The notes under the pieces are model-generated. The model made no database searches. It was not told the origin of the DNA and worked only from the letters and a program-made list of their open reading frames with translations. DNA of 64,000 nucleotides, from the NCBI RefSeq assembly GCF_900115545.1, contig NZ_FOWV01000006.1, forward strand, positions 173,235-237,234, written 5' to 3'. Origin of the DNA: Ralstonia sp. NFACC01. Its GTDB lineage: Bacteria > Pseudomonadota > Gammaproteobacteria > Burkholderiales > Burkholderiaceae. A program made the position numbers and the translations under genes. This document shows, piece after piece, positions 29,946 through 34,654 of this stretch (positions are counted from its first letter, which is position 1; each line of letters opens with the position of its first letter).

Positions 29946-29960
29946 GTCCATTTTGTGGAC
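29946..29960. promoter_or_regulatory. Palindrome 1 upstream of FapF-like gene
   Basis: GTCCATTTTGTGGAC has perfect 5-bp arms around TTTTG. It lies about 40 bp upstream of a TATAGT -10-like box (29993-29998) and resembles a second palindrome at 30042-30056 (TCCA...TTTTG...TGGA). The two centres are 96 bp apart, close to nine helical turns, which would suit a DNA-looping regulator. Confidence 0.4.
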
Positions 29961-30041
29961 GCCAACGCCCTGTCGTTTCACGTTCGCTCGCCTATAGTGG
30001 TATCCGCAGTACGCCACCCGGGGGAAATCGTGAAGGGCCCA

Positions 30042-30056
30042 TCCACTTTTGGTGGA
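30042..30056. promoter_or_regulatory. Palindrome 2 upstream of FapF-like gene
   Basis: TCCACTTTTGGTGGA has perfect 5-bp arms around TTTTG and shares TCCA/TTTTG/TGGA with the palindrome at 29946-29960. It lies 28 bp before the start codon, inside the expected 5-prime leader, so it may be an operator or a leader hairpin. Confidence 0.4.
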
Positions 30057-30083
30057 CAGGGCGCTCTCGACGGGGGACATACC

Positions 30084-31406
30084 ATGACGAAAACGCCATG
30101 GAAGCCGCAAGGTGGGTCAACCCACGCGGTTACGTGCGCATGCCTGCTGCTCTGCGGCGGGCCGGTCCTCGCACAGACCAACGAGCCGGTGGACGACAAG
30201 CCACCCAGCCTGGAAGCGCTGCAGCGCGAGCTTGCCGATACGCAGGCGCGCCTGCAGGAACTCAAGCGCTCGATCCAGCAACAGGAAACGCACCTGCGGC
30301 GCATGCGGCGCGCGCTCGGCATGAGCGAGGGCCGACTCGACACCGTGCGCGGTGCCGGCGCTCCCGGCGCGGCGGGCGATGCATCGCAAATTGCGCAGAA
30401 CGACGACACCGGCACCACGCCAGTCGGCAAACCGCCGGAGCCGCCTGACCGCCCGCCACGCATCGCGCAGATCTTCGATGAGCCCAGCGCACTCACACCG
30501 CCGGGCAAGGTGGTCGTCGAGCCGTCATTGCAGATGGCGTATTCGTCGTCCGACCGCGTGGCGCTGGTGGGCTACACCATCATCCCCGCGCTGCTGATCG
30601 GGCTGATCGACGTACGGCAGGTCAAGACCACCACGCTCACCGGCACGGTGGCGGTGCGCTATGGCCTGGCACGGCGCTGGGAACTGGAAGCGCGCGTGCC
30701 CTATGTTTACAGCGCGAGCGACACCGTCAGCCGCGAATTGTTCACCGGCACGGCCACGGACAACGCCTTCAGCTCGCACGGGCGCGGCATCGGCGATGTG
30801 GAACTGACCGCGCGCTACCAGATCAATGCGGGCGGCGTCGACAAGCCGTTCTACATCGGCTGGCTGCGCTTCAAGACGCGCACCGGCAAGGATCCGTTTG
30901 ACGTCACCACCGATTGCGTGACGCGCTGCGTGAGCAATACCACGGGCACCGGCCTGCCTCTGCAGCAGCCCACGGGCTCGGGCTTCTTCGCCGTTCAGCC
31001 GGGGCTGACGTGGCTGTTCCCGACAGACCCGGCTGTGTTCTTCGGCAGCATCAGCTACCTGCACAATTTCGAGCGCAAGGATGTCAGCCTGAACCTGGTG
31101 GACGGCTCGAAGCAGTTCCTGGGGAACGTAAAGGCCGGCGACATCATCGGCCTGAACTTCGGCATGGGGCTGGCGCTGAACGAGAAGGCATCGTTCTCGA
31201 TTGGCTACGACCAGAGCATCATCGCGCCGACCACGCAGAACGGCCAGCGCGTGCCTGGCTCGGTGCGCACGATTCTCGGCACGTTGCTGGTTGGCTATTC
31301 TTACCGGCTCTCGCCCAAAATGACGCTGAACCTTTCGGTGGGGGCAGGCCTGACGCGCGACACGCCGGACCTGACCGTCACGCTGCGTCTGCCGATCCAG
31401 TTCTAG
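30084..31406 (+). CDS. FapF-like outer-membrane beta-barrel transporter with N-terminal coiled coil
   Basis: The 440-aa protein has a signal peptide (1-30, ending GGPVLA), a heptad-like coiled coil at about 42-78 (SLEALQRELADTQARLQELK), a Pro-rich linker (113-126), and a C-terminal beta-barrel from about residue 130. The barrel carries FDEPSALTPPGKVVVEPSLQ, YTIIPALLIGLIDVRQV, RWELEARVPYVY and a terminal Phe (RLPIQF), the BAM recognition end. This layout matches FapF, the trimeric barrel that exports amyloid subunits in Pseudomonas; relatives are sometimes labelled only as transporter. GGGGGA precedes the ATG. It converges with a four-gene exported-protein operon, one base separating the stop codons. 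The FapF assignment rests on layout and recalled family motifs, not a search. Confidence 0.7.
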   Translation: MTKTPWKPQGGSTHAVTCACLLLCGGPVLAQTNEPVDDKPPSLEALQRELADTQARLQELKRSIQQQETHLRRMRRALGMSEGRLDTVRGAGAPGAAGDASQIAQNDDTGTTPVGKPPEPPDRPPRIAQIFDEPSALTPPGKVVVEPSLQMAYSSSDRVALVGYTIIPALLIGLIDVRQVKTTTLTGTVAVRYGLARRWELEARVPYVYSASDTVSRELFTGTATDNAFSSHGRGIGDVELTARYQINAGGVDKPFYIGWLRFKTRTGKDPFDVTTDCVTRCVSNTTGTGLPLQQPTGSGFFAVQPGLTWLFPTDPAVFFGSISYLHNFERKDVSLNLVDGSKQFLGNVKAGDIIGLNFGMGLALNEKASFSIGYDQSIIAPTTQNGQRVPGSVRTILGTLLVGYSYRLSPKMTLNLSVGAGLTRDTPDLTVTLRLPIQF

Positions 31407-31407
31407 C

Positions 31408-31944
31408 TCAGTGCAGCAGGGTGACGACGTTGGCCAGGGCGCCCTGCAGCACGTTGGAGAGATTCAGCTGACGGAACTGCGGCAGGCTGTTGACCGCCGC
31501 GTTGATGGTCGTCACCGCTTGCAGCGTCTGGTTGTTCAGACTGTTCTGGATGACCGTGGCCGCCGCTGCCGCCCCCGCCGCCACATCGGGCGGCGCAACA
31601 TTGTTCGGGCCGTTCTGCACAAGATTGACCGTGTTGACCACCGAGGCCAGTTGCTGCGCCTGCGTGGCCGTCATGCGTGCCACATCGGGGATGTTCACCG
31701 ATGCGCTCGCCACCAGATCGCCGTTGACGTAGACCGCTCGGTCGATGCCGAACGAGATGTGCAGCCCCGCAAGCGAGGGCACATCGAAGCCGCCGCGCAT
31801 GTCGTCGAGCTTGTCTTCGGACACGGCGTGCCAAGCATGGACGGGATTGTTATCCAAGCCATCCATGTCAGCCGCACACGCATGCCCAGCCGCAGCGAGC
31901 GCGAACCATCCAACAGCCCGCGCCACCTTGCCAAACCGCTTCAT
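31408..31944 (-). CDS. Small exported protein with double-glycine motif and QNS repeats (fibre-locus protein D)
   Basis: The 178-aa product has a signal peptide (MKRFGKVARAVGWFALAAAGHACA) and then AVSEDKLDDMRGG at residues 40-52, which resembles the LxxxxGG leader ends cut by C39 peptidases. The rest contains a beta-rich FDVPSLAGLHISFGIDRAVYV and two Asn/Gln-rich stretches (NLVQNGPNN; VIQNSLNNQTLQAVTTIN). A strong AGGAGG precedes the ATG. It is the last gene of the A-B-C-D operon and converges with the FapF-like gene. I cannot assign it to a named Fap protein; a minor fibre subunit or adaptor is an inference from the repeats and context. Confidence 0.75.
   Translation of the reverse strand: MKRFGKVARAVGWFALAAAGHACAADMDGLDNNPVHAWHAVSEDKLDDMRGGFDVPSLAGLHISFGIDRAVYVNGDLVASASVNIPDVARMTATQAQQLASVVNTVNLVQNGPNNVAPPDVAAGAAAAATVIQNSLNNQTLQAVTTINAAVNSLPQFRQLNLSNVLQGALANVVTLLH
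31789..31827 (-). other. Candidate C39 cleavage motif in protein D
   Basis: These 13 codons encode AVSEDKLDDMRGG. Compared with protein B, A, V, D, L, D, R, G, G are identical and K/R is conserved at position 6. The motif lies shortly after the signal peptide, a place suited to propeptide removal. Confidence 0.45.
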
Positions 31945-31987
31945 GATGCCCTCCTGCCGAACTATCGGGCCGCCACGCAGACGACGC

Positions 31988-32671
31988 TCAGAAGTCGGTC
32001 GGACCATGCTTGGGAACGACGATATTCCCGAGGCCGCTGCGGTCCATGCCTTCCTCCAGCGGCGCACGCGGTGCCACGCGCCAATCCGATGCGGCGTTGA
32101 ACATCGCCCCCGACTCGCGGTTGTGGACGACGAACAGCAAATGGTTGTCCCACATGCTCTCGAAACTCGCACGCGGAATCGCACGCGTGCCCATGGCCGG
32201 ATCGCCCACCAGCACACGCCCTTCTTGCACACCCTTGACCACCACGAAGTGGTGATAGCCGTTCTCGGTCAACAGCACGATGGCCGGCAAGTGCGCGTCC
32301 TTCAATGCATCCAGCGGCTGCTCGAAACCATCGGCCTCAAAGCCCAGAGAAGCCAGATAGCGTTTGATGTCGAGCAGCGAAAAGCCTTCTCGCCGGATCT
32401 TCTCCTGGTTGCCATGTTCGTACATGGCCTGGAACACGGTCTGCTCGCTCACCGGATAGCCGTACTGATACGTGAGCAGCGTCGCCACCGCGGCCGACCC
32501 GCAACTGAAGTCGAAACGCTGATGCACGGTACGCAGATAGCGCTCGGCCTTCATGCTCGTCACCGGCACGGCATAGGTGCCCCCGCCCGTGCCGAGCATG
32601 TCGATCGCGCCCGCCAACGCGGGCCCACACATCAGTGCCATCAGCACTGCACCGCACGTCTTGCGCATCAT
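31988..32671 (-). CDS. Exported C39 family cysteine peptidase (FapD-like)
   Basis: The 227-aa protein has a short signal peptide (MMRKTCGAVLMALMCGPALAG) and a single C39 domain. The catalytic Cys is in RFDFSCGSAAVATLLTY, with the oxyanion Gln six residues before it (HQRFDFSC). The His is in ENGYHHFVVVKG and the Asp in RVLVGDPAMG, so the triad is complete. Unlike ABC-transporter-fused C39 peptidases it is stand-alone and exported, as FapD is. It most likely works in the periplasm on partners of the same operon, two of which carry a double-glycine motif. It lies 16 bp downstream of the gene ending at 32688. A second ATG at 32668 is an equal start candidate. Confidence 0.85.
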   Translation of the reverse strand: MMRKTCGAVLMALMCGPALAGAIDMLGTGGGTYAVPVTSMKAERYLRTVHQRFDFSCGSAAVATLLTYQYGYPVSEQTVFQAMYEHGNQEKIRREGFSLLDIKRYLASLGFEADGFEQPLDALKDAHLPAIVLLTENGYHHFVVVKGVQEGRVLVGDPAMGTRAIPRASFESMWDNHLLFVVHNRESGAMFNAASDWRVAPRAPLEEGMDRSGLGNIVVPKHGPTDF

Positions 32672-32687
32672 TCCGCCCTTCGCAAGC

Positions 32688-33122
32688 TCAAGGCCGGAAC
32701 TGCACGTTGACGATGGTGGCGTTCTGGATCAGCACGTTCGCTCCGCTGTTCTGGATGACCGTGGGGATCCCGCTGGCATTGGCAAACGAGCCGTCGCGCA
32801 CGATGTTCGACCCCGTCGCCACATTCACGGCGGCGTTGTCGCTCACGGTGCCCGACAGGCGCGCGTCATTGACGGTCTGGTAGAGATCCTGCGTGCCGCC
32901 GCGATAGCTGTCGAGCCGATCTGCTCCCACCGCATGACCGAACCCAGGCACCGACACGGCCGCGGCGACCGGGGGACGCACCGCTTCCGTATTGGCTGTC
33001 TGAGCACCGTCTGCGATTGACGCATCGTCCGCCGCCATCGCCGCTGCCGCTGGCCACACTGCCAGGCCGCATGCCAACCACCATGCCGCCCATCCTGCTG
33101 TGGTTCTTCTGTCGGATCGCAT
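32688..33122 (-). CDS. Small exported protein with double-glycine motif and QNSG C-terminus (fibre-locus protein B)
   Basis: The 144-aa protein has a signal peptide (1-30, ending AAAAMA), a Pro/Ala linker, and AVGADRLDSYRGG at residues 64-76, matching AVSEDKLDDMRGG of the last operon gene in spacing and key residues. After that come TQDLYQTVNDARLSGTVSDN and an Asn-rich C-terminus with VIQNSGANVLIQNATIVN. The C-terminus closely resembles that of the glycine-rich protein encoded upstream (QNSGFASLIQQSINVQ). AGAGGAG precedes the ATG. It is separated from the upstream gene by 123 bp containing a 9-bp hairpin. No family is recognised; a minor subunit or nucleator is inferred. Confidence 0.75.
   Translation of the reverse strand: MRSDRRTTAGWAAWWLACGLAVWPAAAAMAADDASIADGAQTANTEAVRPPVAAAVSVPGFGHAVGADRLDSYRGGTQDLYQTVNDARLSGTVSDNAAVNVATGSNIVRDGSFANASGIPTVIQNSGANVLIQNATIVNVQFRP
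32895..32933 (-). other. Candidate C39 cleavage motif in protein B
   Basis: These 13 codons encode AVGADRLDSYRGG. Double-glycine leaders cut by C39 peptidases end in a hydrophobic-spaced LxxxxGG; here Leu70 and Gly75-Gly76 fit. The same pattern occurs in protein D (31789-31827), and a C39 peptidase lies between the two genes. Confidence 0.45.
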
Positions 33123-33149
33123 CGAATATCTCCTCTACGCTCCAACTGC

Positions 33150-33177
33150 GGGCCGGACCACCGATGCAGTCCGGCCC
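33150..33177 (-). promoter_or_regulatory. Intercistronic hairpin between genes A and B
   Basis: A perfect 9-bp GC-rich stem GGGCCGGAC/GTCCGGCCC with a 10-base loop lies in the 123-bp gap between the glycine-rich protein gene and protein B. There is no T-run after it, so it is not a classical terminator. It may protect the upstream mRNA or partly stop transcription, giving more of protein A than of downstream proteins. Confidence 0.5.
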
Positions 33178-33245
33178 CATCCACCGTCATGCGCGAAGCT
33201 TCATCGCTTGCGCCGCGGCACTTCCCCGCTCATGCCCATACCGGG

Positions 33246-34535
33246 CTATTTGCCCACATTCAGGTTCGCCTGCACGTTGATGCTTTGCTGGATGAGGGAA
33301 GCAAAGCCGCTGTTCTGGTTCGCCACCATCACGCCTGCTGCAGACTGGCCAACGCTGGTCATGGCGTTGGACATGTTGAACGTACCTGCGTCCACCATGA
33401 CCGTACCGCCCGCACCGCCCGTGCCGCCCACCGCACCATTGCCGACACCGCCATTGCCCACGCCGCCTGCACCGCCGGCCGCACCGACTGCACCCACGGC
33501 GCCATTGCCTGCCGTGGACGATGCTGCGCCGTTGGTGGCGCTGCCGTTGGTGGCGCTACCGCCTGCGCCGCCATTGCCTGCCACATTGGTAGCTGCACCG
33601 CCCGCGCCTGCCGCGCCGCCCGTGCTGCTACCGGTGGCACTGCTCGTGCCCGTGCCCGCACCGGCCGATGCCGTTGACGTACCGCTGGTGGTGGAGCCGC
33701 CAGCGCCGCCTGCACCGCCTGCCGAGGCACTGCCGCCGCCCGTGGCTGCGCCGCTGCCCTGATGGCGGTTCGCATCGCCACCGCTGGCGCTGGACGTACC
33801 GCCCGCACCGCCGCCACCGCCGCCGGCTGCGCTCGTGCTGCCCGCTGCGCCGCCAAGGCCTGCACCCAGGCTCGCCGACAGCGTGCCGGAGCTGCCGCCG
33901 GTACCGCCGCCGCCCGCATTGCCGCCAGCGGCTCCGCCATTGCCGCCGTTGCCGGCCATCGCGCCACCGTTGGTCGCGCTGCCGTGCGTGACGCTGCCGG
34001 AGCTACCGCCAGCGCCACCGCTGCCGCCTGCACCGCCAGCGCCACCGTTGCCGCCAGCGCCTGTGCCGCCGTAGCCGTATCCGCCACGCCCGCCGGCGCC
34101 GCCATTGGCCGTGCCGCCATTGTTGGTGGCGACGTTGCCGATGCCCGACACGCTGATGTTGGTGACGGTGCCATCCAGCTTGGAGACAGCAATTGCCTTG
34201 CTTGTGTTGAAGGAGTTGGTGAATGTTGCCGTTGCCATGCCGCCATTGTTGGCAGCGGCGGTGCCATAGCCGTCAGCGTTGGCCCAGCCGCTGTTGTCGC
34301 GGTTGCTGCCCTGGCTTTGGTTGTTGTGTTGATTCGAGTTATCCGTTGCCGTTGTGGTTGTGGTCGTTGCGGTATTCGTCGTCGTGTCTGTGCTGGTGTT
34401 GGTTCTGGTGATAGTCGACGTGTTGGTTTGGGTCTTGTCACCCGCCCCAGACGCCGTATTCCCGATGTCGGCCAATGCCACGCCAGAGACCCCCAATCCC
34501 ATGGCGATCGCGGTGGCCAGTAAGGTCTTCTTCAT
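33246..34535 (-). CDS. Exported glycine-rich repetitive protein, candidate main fibre or matrix subunit (protein A)
   Basis: The 429-aa protein has a clear signal peptide (MKKTLLATAIAMGLGVSGVALA, cleavage before DIGN). Residues 27-75 are Thr/Asn-rich low complexity. A short ordered-looking segment at about 101-134 (FTNSFNTSKAIAVSKLDGTV, then SVSGIGN) precedes a Gly/Ala/Ser-rich repeat region at about 138-378 built of GGAGG, NGG and TNGSATNG units. A non-repetitive 50-residue C-terminus ends QNSGFASLIQQSINVQANLNVGK-like with Asn/Gln. The C-terminus resembles that of the small exported protein B downstream. GGAG precedes the ATG, and a sigma-54-type promoter lies about 100 bp upstream. It is not a recognisable FapC or curlin; a structural secreted protein is inferred. 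Confidence 0.8.
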   Translation of the reverse strand: MKKTLLATAIAMGLGVSGVALADIGNTASGAGDKTQTNTSTITRTNTSTDTTTNTATTTTTTATDNSNQHNNQSQGSNRDNSGWANADGYGTAAANNGGMATATFTNSFNTSKAIAVSKLDGTVTNISVSGIGNVATNNGGTANGGAGGRGGYGYGGTGAGGNGGAGGAGGSGGAGGSSGSVTHGSATNGGAMAGNGGNGGAAGGNAGGGGTGGSSGTLSASLGAGLGGAAGSTSAAGGGGGGAGGTSSASGGDANRHQGSGAATGGGSASAGGAGGAGGSTTSGTSTASAGAGTGTSSATGSSTGGAAGAGGAATNVAGNGGAGGSATNGSATNGAASSTAGNGAVGAVGAAGGAGGVGNGGVGNGAVGGTGGAGGTVMVDAGTFNMSNAMTSVGQSAAGVMVANQNSGFASLIQQSINVQANLNVGK

Positions 34536-34636
34536 AACGCACTCCATAAAGGTGAGAGGGACGGCTGGAAACGCAGCCAGTAAGGCCGGCGCGCTCTGCC
34601 TGTGGGAAAAACGTGACCCACCCCGGGGCGGCTCGT

Positions 34637-34654
34637 TCGCATAAACGGTGCCAA
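34637..34654 (-). promoter_or_regulatory. Candidate sigma-54 promoter of the glycine-rich protein operon
   Basis: On the minus strand TTGGCACCGTTTATGCGA has GG and GC exactly 10 bp apart and a full TTGGCAC -24 element. The -12 region is ATGC rather than TTGC, one mismatch. It predicts a start about 93 bases before the ATG at 34535. Confidence 0.55.

Follow-up and report, generated by a model that had tools for sequence, protein, structure and literature searches.

We analyzed a stretch of 64,000 nucleotides from Ralstonia sp. NFACC01 (contig NZ_FOWV01000006.1, positions 173,235 to 237,234 of the forward strand; this whole stretch is called the window below), which carries a five-gene locus related to the Fap fiber secretion system of Pseudomonas. 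Four of the genes form a minus-strand operon (31408-34535) with the transcription order cargo, S1, C39 peptidase, and S2, and they converge with a plus-strand gene for an outer-membrane barrel. The cargo is a glycine-rich exported protein (33246..34535, 429 amino acids [aa]), S1 is a small exported protein that has the C-terminal module of the cargo (32688..33122, 144 aa), the C39 peptidase is an exported protein of the FapD type (31988..32671, 227 aa), and S2 is an exported protein that resembles FapE at its leader (31408..31944, 178 aa). The barrel is of the FapF type and has an N-terminal extension (30084..31406, 440 aa). Judged by eye, all five proteins start with a Sec-type signal. Positions, strands, lengths, and the convergent layout had been given in the original prediction, and reading the open reading frames (ORFs) of the window bore them out. 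The cargo, S1, and S2 had zero matches in Pfam and NCBIfam at an E value of 1 or less.

The barrel is clearly related to FapF. The NCBIfam FapF model NF058560 covered residues 40-440 (E 9.8e-47; 159.7 bits, cut-off 700), and a profile of the barrel's relatives matched the solved FapF structures 5o67, 5o65, and 5o68 across the whole barrel (E 6.8e-38 to 2.9e-36). A barrel unrelated to FapF, the outcome that would have spoken against the original assignment, did not occur. Matches to Pfam coiled-coil families were weak (E 0.013 or worse). The barrel also matched Pfam PF13557 (E 6.3e-6), as would be expected if it were an importer of hydrophobic compounds from the meta-pathway channel family that had been placed here by chance. 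However, the FapF model and structures fit far better and the gene lies adjacent in 76 of 80 related loci through three arrangements, which makes such an importer extremely improbable. In the linker ahead of the barrel domain, residues L85, R89, and G90 were invariant in all 19 aligned Ralstonia and Cupriavidus barrels (L-x3-R-G), marking a leader-like sequence, MSEGRLDTVRGA (30321..30356, plus strand), that could be an additional cut site; that the linker is a third substrate of the C39 peptidase is a possibility only. A leader-like pattern was missing from 7 of 12 canonical FapF proteins. Separately, the two cysteines of TDCVTRCV (window 30909-30932) were invariant in the same 19 barrels and may form a disulfide or a ligand site.

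The peptidase matched the NCBIfam FapD model NF058616 (E 1.2e-39; 135.9 bits, cut-off 330) and Pfam C39 (E 5.5e-24), in agreement with its earlier assignment to FapD. C57, H140, H141, and D157 were invariant in 18/18 aligned sequences; among 80 C39 relatives, the Cys motif was found in all and the complete set of three rough catalytic patterns (Cys, His, and Asp) in 57. The closest solved structures were 6mpz (E 1.8e-8), which is a protease domain for the double-glycine motif, and a peptidase-containing ABC transporter (4ry2 and others). Kinship of the catalytic domain and identical leader spacing link the locus peptidase to LahT, PCAT1, and ComA (PMC6363468). In contrast to these, it is stand-alone and exported, has no ABC transporter, and would meet substrates that carry a Sec signal first. 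The Fil system of Acinetobacter is related as well, through FilB for the peptidase (E 3.5e-37; 128.3 of 475 bits) and FilC for the barrel (E 1.9e-15; 57.1 of 630 bits). In this comparison, made by models alone, both proteins scored higher against FapD and FapF, and no other Fil model matched; a paper search for the Acinetobacter Fil genes found none.

Family models recognized no other Fap component. The NCBIfam models for FapA, FapB, FapC, and FapE did not match the locus proteins at an E value of 1 or less, and FapA reached 0.1% in HHalign, against an alignment of only 4 FapA sequences. Likewise, none of the five proteins matched curlin repeats or CsgG in Pfam at this threshold. The profile searches thus turned out as the original prediction had anticipated, with FapF and FapD recognizable and a cargo that can be matched to neither FapC nor curlin. 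As FapB and FapC were searched for and not found, we do not class the locus as Fap proper.

A true Fap system does occur in the genus. The locus C39 peptidase was present in 16/16 Ralstonia genomes, the window's included (79-100% identity), and a second C39 peptidase with 39-42% identity was present in 8 of the 16. The second locus of one of these (L071) matched all six Fap models (FapA E 5e-9, FapB 3.4e-16, FapC 8e-28, FapD 1.5e-57, FapE 2.9e-17, and FapF 3.6e-112), each under its curated cut-off. We regard L071 to L075 as true Fap operons, L071 by this model scan and the others by gene order. As a true Fap locus falls below the curated NCBIfam cut-offs for all six proteins, and 0 of 398 family genomes pass that of FapD, these cut-offs are uninformative here. 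The second C39 loci indicate that true Fap and the locus system coexist in part of Ralstonia (8/16 by C39 count), while the window genome, whose only C39 match is the locus peptidase, has the locus system alone. R. pickettii is listed among Fap carriers in published surveys (PMC3792158, PMC6173800).

An ordinary fap operon whose cargo is a FapC that has drifted past recognition would account for the machine parts, which are the same. Profile comparisons of S1 with FapB (18.4%, E 0.0013) and of the Asn-rich cargo module of gammaproteobacterial relatives, described below, with FapB (37.7%, E 3.4e-4) also lean in this direction. The lack of FapA, FapB, FapC, and FapE matches argues against it, as do an HHalign value of 0.1% between the cargo module and FapC, the true Fap loci in related Ralstonia, and the separate clade formed by the locus C39 peptidases. 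We consider a drifted FapC improbable.

The five genes are kept together well beyond the window. All were present in 15/15 other Ralstonia loci, with the order cargo-S1-C39-S2 and a convergent barrel gene, and in 12/12 Cupriavidus loci, where they lie on one strand; contig ends truncate the cargo in three of the Ralstonia loci (L059, L063, and L067) and in one from Cupriavidus (L080). When named genomes were searched with the C39 alignment, at least 548 relatives emerged, and the best 80 were kept, so that this set is biased toward near kin. The 80 loci come from Burkholderiales such as Ralstonia, Cupriavidus, Burkholderia, Paraburkholderia, Pandoraea, Variovorax, Polaromonas, and Rugamonas and from Xanthomonadales such as Lysobacter, Pseudoxanthomonas, Luteibacter, Dyella, and Rhodanobacter. 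S1, the C39 peptidase, and S2 were found in 80/80, the barrel in 76/80, and all five genes in 72/80. The cargo C terminus was detected in 66/80 by hidden Markov model (HMM) and in 74/80 by HMM or regular expression. Of the 14 cargo proteins missed by the HMM, 8 were recovered by regular expression and those of L148 and L154 by eye; in L151 and L159 the cargo begins or ends close to the edge of the locus, and L144 and L155 were left without an assigned cargo. Gene calling relied on a codon-score script of our own; two genes that it overlooked, S1 of L081 and the cargo of L084, were located afterwards. The S2 alignment, run against Burkholderiales genomes, gave 28/399, likely too few given a two-genus model and many partial matches.

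Retention in 27 other Ralstonia and Cupriavidus loci and in 72/80 named loci puts the gene set beyond chance, and the co-occurrence proposed at the outset is thus widespread. Among the 76 barrel genes, 39 lie downstream on the same strand, 21 downstream inverted, and 16 upstream inverted; as the gene stays adjacent through three arrangements, it is likely tied to its neighbors. As judged from these sequences, the locus system occurs in two orders, and it extends into further gammaproteobacteria if loci with other cargo bodies are counted. In three of the gammaproteobacterial loci, S2 and the barrel are separated by a gene for a small protein that is rich in Gln and coiled-coil-like (L231:4673-5086, L233:5306-5665, and L236:7157-7573). 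In searches of the literature on Ralstonia glycine-rich secreted proteins with C39 or biofilm, and on Fap in Burkholderia or Ralstonia, no title or abstract opening described the locus.

Behind their Sec signals, S1 and S2 carry the motif hydrophobic-x4-Leu-x3-Arg-Gly-Gly (VGADRLDSYRGG in S1, 32895..32930; VSEDKLDDMRGG in S2, 31789..31824; both on the minus strand). With a hydrophobic residue at -12, Leu at -7, and Gly-Gly ending the leader, both proteins have the features of C39 substrates, and the spacing of -4, -7, and -12 is that reported for the LahT complex (PMC6363468). The motif was defined from Ralstonia and Cupriavidus proteins that are themselves within the 80 loci; in its strict form it was found in 65/80 S1 and 70/80 S2 proteins, and in its loose form in 76/80 and 79/80, respectively, L164 having the one S2 without it. 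The background among 667 other proteins from these loci was 2 with the strict and 30 with the loose motif, and shuffled S1 and S2 sequences had the loose motif at 3.0% and 6.3%. Cleavage of S1 and S2 by the C39 peptidase at this leader is what we infer from the pattern. The cargo was also considered as a substrate and dropped, with the strict motif in 0/67 sequences within the first 200 residues and in 2/67 anywhere. In 4 of 12 Cupriavidus loci (L082, L085, L086, and L087), the N-terminal region of S2, which is variable in other respects, contains the motif as two or three copies in tandem.

Double-glycine leaders next to a C39 peptidase of the bacteriocin-processing kind could also mean that the peptidase releases S1 and S2 as secreted peptides akin to bacteriocins or signals, with the cargo a bystander. 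However, the cargo gene lies beside S1 and S2 in 74/80 loci, cargo and S1 have a C-terminal module in common, and the single C39 match of the window genome leaves no ABC transporter with a C39 domain. A peptide system of this kind is therefore very unlikely.

The leader of S2 connects the locus to FapE. At the position of the S2 leader, the gene that follows FapD encodes L-x3-[RT]G-[KR] in 50 canonical loci; the motif-bearing ORF was preferred among those after the C39 gene (60/64 loci had one). HHalign of S2 against 50 FapE sequences gave 87.6% (E 3.5e-6, 34 columns at the leader), and column-shuffled FapE gave 0.2% or less in 5/5 controls. A canonical fap locus additionally encodes, ahead of FapA, an exported protein with EQLGSQRGR (L090:3300-3836) that looks like a further leader-bearing substrate. 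In published work, the catalytic Cys of FapD was required for secretion, and FapE was the only component missing N-terminal peptides, the FapD target being described as unclear (PMC5557850). The FapD substrate was given as undetermined in 2017 and 2018 (PMC5557850, PMC6173800), and a 2025 review states that FapD is "thought to" process the FapE N terminus and the periplasmic part of FapF (PMC12822426).

The protease phylogeny follows the same division. A tree built from 145 C39 rows placed every one of the 50 rows whose partner has RG[KR] on one side of a branch (100/98); the other side (99/97) held 81 rows of the locus system and 10 others with RGG. The tree supports a matched specificity of protease and leader and, with one split only, is no proof of it. 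With its own cargo, leaders, and protease clade, the locus is a sister system to Fap. The two are alike in a FapF-type barrel, a periplasmic C39 peptidase, a protein that resembles FapE at its leader and has a putative site in the corresponding position, and a sigma-54 promoter. They differ in that the locus has no detected FapA, FapB, or FapC, a glycine-rich cargo, RGG instead of RG[KR], an extra leader-bearing protein (S1), and a separate C39 clade.

Glycine makes up 24-29% of the cargo in five full Ralstonia ORFs, some with an upstream extension, and 17-34% over the relatives listed. The glycine-rich core (33354..34172, minus strand) has a three-residue glycine period with an autocorrelation of 0.22, compared with 0 (standard deviation, 0.06) in 1,000 shuffles, and the period-3 value exceeded 0.1 in 99% of 90 cargo proteins, some genomes being counted twice. 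The GGX-like period resembles that of mycobacterial PE_PGRS proteins, which use another exporter; the likeness is one of composition only, and neither homology nor a PE domain is claimed. By this analogy, the core may adopt a polyglycine-II-like fold. Nine of the 80 loci (L109, L110, L118, L134, L147, L149, L150, L152, and L167) have two tandem copies of the Gly-rich cargo gene.

The final ~45 residues of the cargo are conserved among relatives and form a C-terminal module (33249..33392, minus strand). HHalign aligned S1 with this module at 84-87% and with S2 at 96%, while the module reached 1.5% against FapB. In ten gammaproteobacterial loci on the RGG side of the C39 tree, the slot before S1 holds proteins of varied composition: Asn 24-28% and Gly 3-4% in L233 to L236, intermediate in L228 to L230, Gly 32% in L232 and 17% in L227, and a contig-end fragment in L231. 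The cargo of L227 and L232 had no clear C-terminal module by eye, and both were left out of the module alignment. Ten C termini from the other eight loci matched the Gly-rich module at 96.8% (E 2.2e-10) and S1 at 97.4% (E 1.2e-11), with shuffled controls below 0.3% in 5/5; against FapC they gave 0.2%. We read this as a cargo body that may be exchangeable on a fixed assembly end.

A low-complexity, exchangeable body would also suit a product that is not polymeric. The same export machine could deliver a coat or adhesin, its glycine-rich chain being disordered or folded into single surface-tethered polyglycine-II sheets without a fiber. PGRS domains with GGX triplets have been modeled as polyglycine-II sandwiches and are not fibers (PMC10216338). 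However, the C-terminal module that S1 has in common with the cargo is what a starter-polymer pair would be expected to show, and the regulation resembles that of Fap matrix genes. A coat or adhesin is thus unlikely, if still the most serious competitor.

Regulation of the locus looks sigma-54 dependent on the basis of its upstream sequences. A sigma-54-type promoter, TGGCACCGTTTATGC (34639..34653, minus strand; score 22 of a maximum 25), precedes the cargo gene and is kept upstream of cargo genes. Of 68 upstream regions, 59 scored 20 or more and 42 scored 22 or more; in this set some genomes are represented twice, a few regions were taken from a start that lies within the gene, and one has no site. 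Shuffles reached these scores in 3.4% and 0.35% of cases. A site ahead of the window's barrel gene was considered and dropped (best score, 14). Canonical fap operons had a site of 20 or more upstream in 7/12, in a scan without shuffle control; the gammaproteobacterial promoter scan likewise had no shuffle control, and the start in L233 was guessed.

A sigma-54 activator with a VpsR domain was encoded in 20/80 loci. Pfam confirmed the VpsR type in 6/6 of these tested (L105, L121, L135, L156, L160, and L164) and in 5/5 tested in gammaproteobacterial loci, and all 25 VpsR-type activators of the two sets had GAFTGA or GSFTGA. Among five neighbors of four canonical fap operons, three were VpsR-type activators, and the second L088 neighbor and the one of L071 were not; the three lie near canonical Burkholderiales operons (L088:1265-2629, L090:1201-2556, and L094:9467-10822). 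In Pseudomonas fluorescens PF07, a sigma-54 promoter has been mapped for fapA-E, which also has an activator as its neighbor, and the matrix requires both (PMC9207406); BerB of Burkholderia cenocepacia is reported as a cyclic di-GMP-binding sigma-54 activator of biofilm exopolysaccharide (PMC5552954). This sigma-54/VpsR theme, common to true fap, is the best indirect support for a role in biofilm.

Taken together, the locus probably works like Fap, and the explanation we favor, with somewhat more confidence than doubt, is that of a Fap sister system, predicted to be machinery devoted to exporting and assembling a protein of the cell surface or matrix. Several observations weigh against this explanation. 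The division of the C39 tree into RG[KR] and RGG is one event. The match of S2 to FapE is limited to the 34 columns of the leader region and drops to 63.9% (E 6.6e-5, 22 columns) against a 12-sequence FapE alignment. The S1 leaders of the ten gammaproteobacterial loci mostly do not have the second Gly (RGT, RGM, RGR, RGQ, and SGR), and the S1-position protein of L227 had no leader by the pattern used. In the wider set, the leader pattern of the barrel linker fits only 32/76 barrels; a looser search gave 53/76, with some matches inside the barrel itself. Tandem GGX holds only 75 of 273 core residues. The window has 8 sigma-54 sites scoring 22 or more, one of them inside the cargo gene, and the single VpsR-domain gene of the window genome lies on another contig.

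From the gene set, its conservation, the leaders, the shared module, the promoter, and the regulators beside part of the relatives, a working scheme of cleavage, export, and polymerization can be proposed. The five products would reach the periplasm via Sec, where the C39 peptidase would cut the N-terminal leaders off S1 and S2 after RGG and possibly cut the barrel linker too. Processed S2, as the FapE-like component, and S1 would enable the cargo to pass through a trimeric FapF-type pore. Outside the cell, cargo and S1 would meet via their common C-terminal module, with S1 acting as a starter or cap, as FapB does, and the Gly-rich body would make up the bulk of a matrix polymer. Sigma-54 and a VpsR-type activator would turn on transcription, i.e., in the biofilm state.

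More tentatively, and with doubt prevailing, the locus may represent a widespread second lineage of Fap-type secretion with an exchangeable polymer body. Its chassis would consist of the C39 peptidase, the barrel, two leader-bearing accessory proteins, and one C-terminal module, carrying GGX polyglycine-II-like bodies in Burkholderiales and Xanthomonadales and Asn/Ser-rich ones in gammaproteobacteria. Maturation would be a periplasmic double-glycine cleavage of the bacteriocin type, and RG[KR] would be the FapD cut site in FapE of true Fap.

The FapD and FapF models are reported to match many proteins outside Fap operons, and fapD and fapF homologues to lie side by side in five more phyla (PMC3792158, PMC6173800). 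The present locus gives content to such homologues, which these reports appear to have left uncharacterized: at least some of them are part of a single coherent system that has a cargo and regulation of its own. It is common to many soil and water bacteria, and its S1 and S2 have what appear to be textbook cut sites for its periplasmic protease. By offering an explicit conserved site in a FapE-like protein and in a second small protein, the sister system makes the question of the FapD substrate testable with a few purified proteins.

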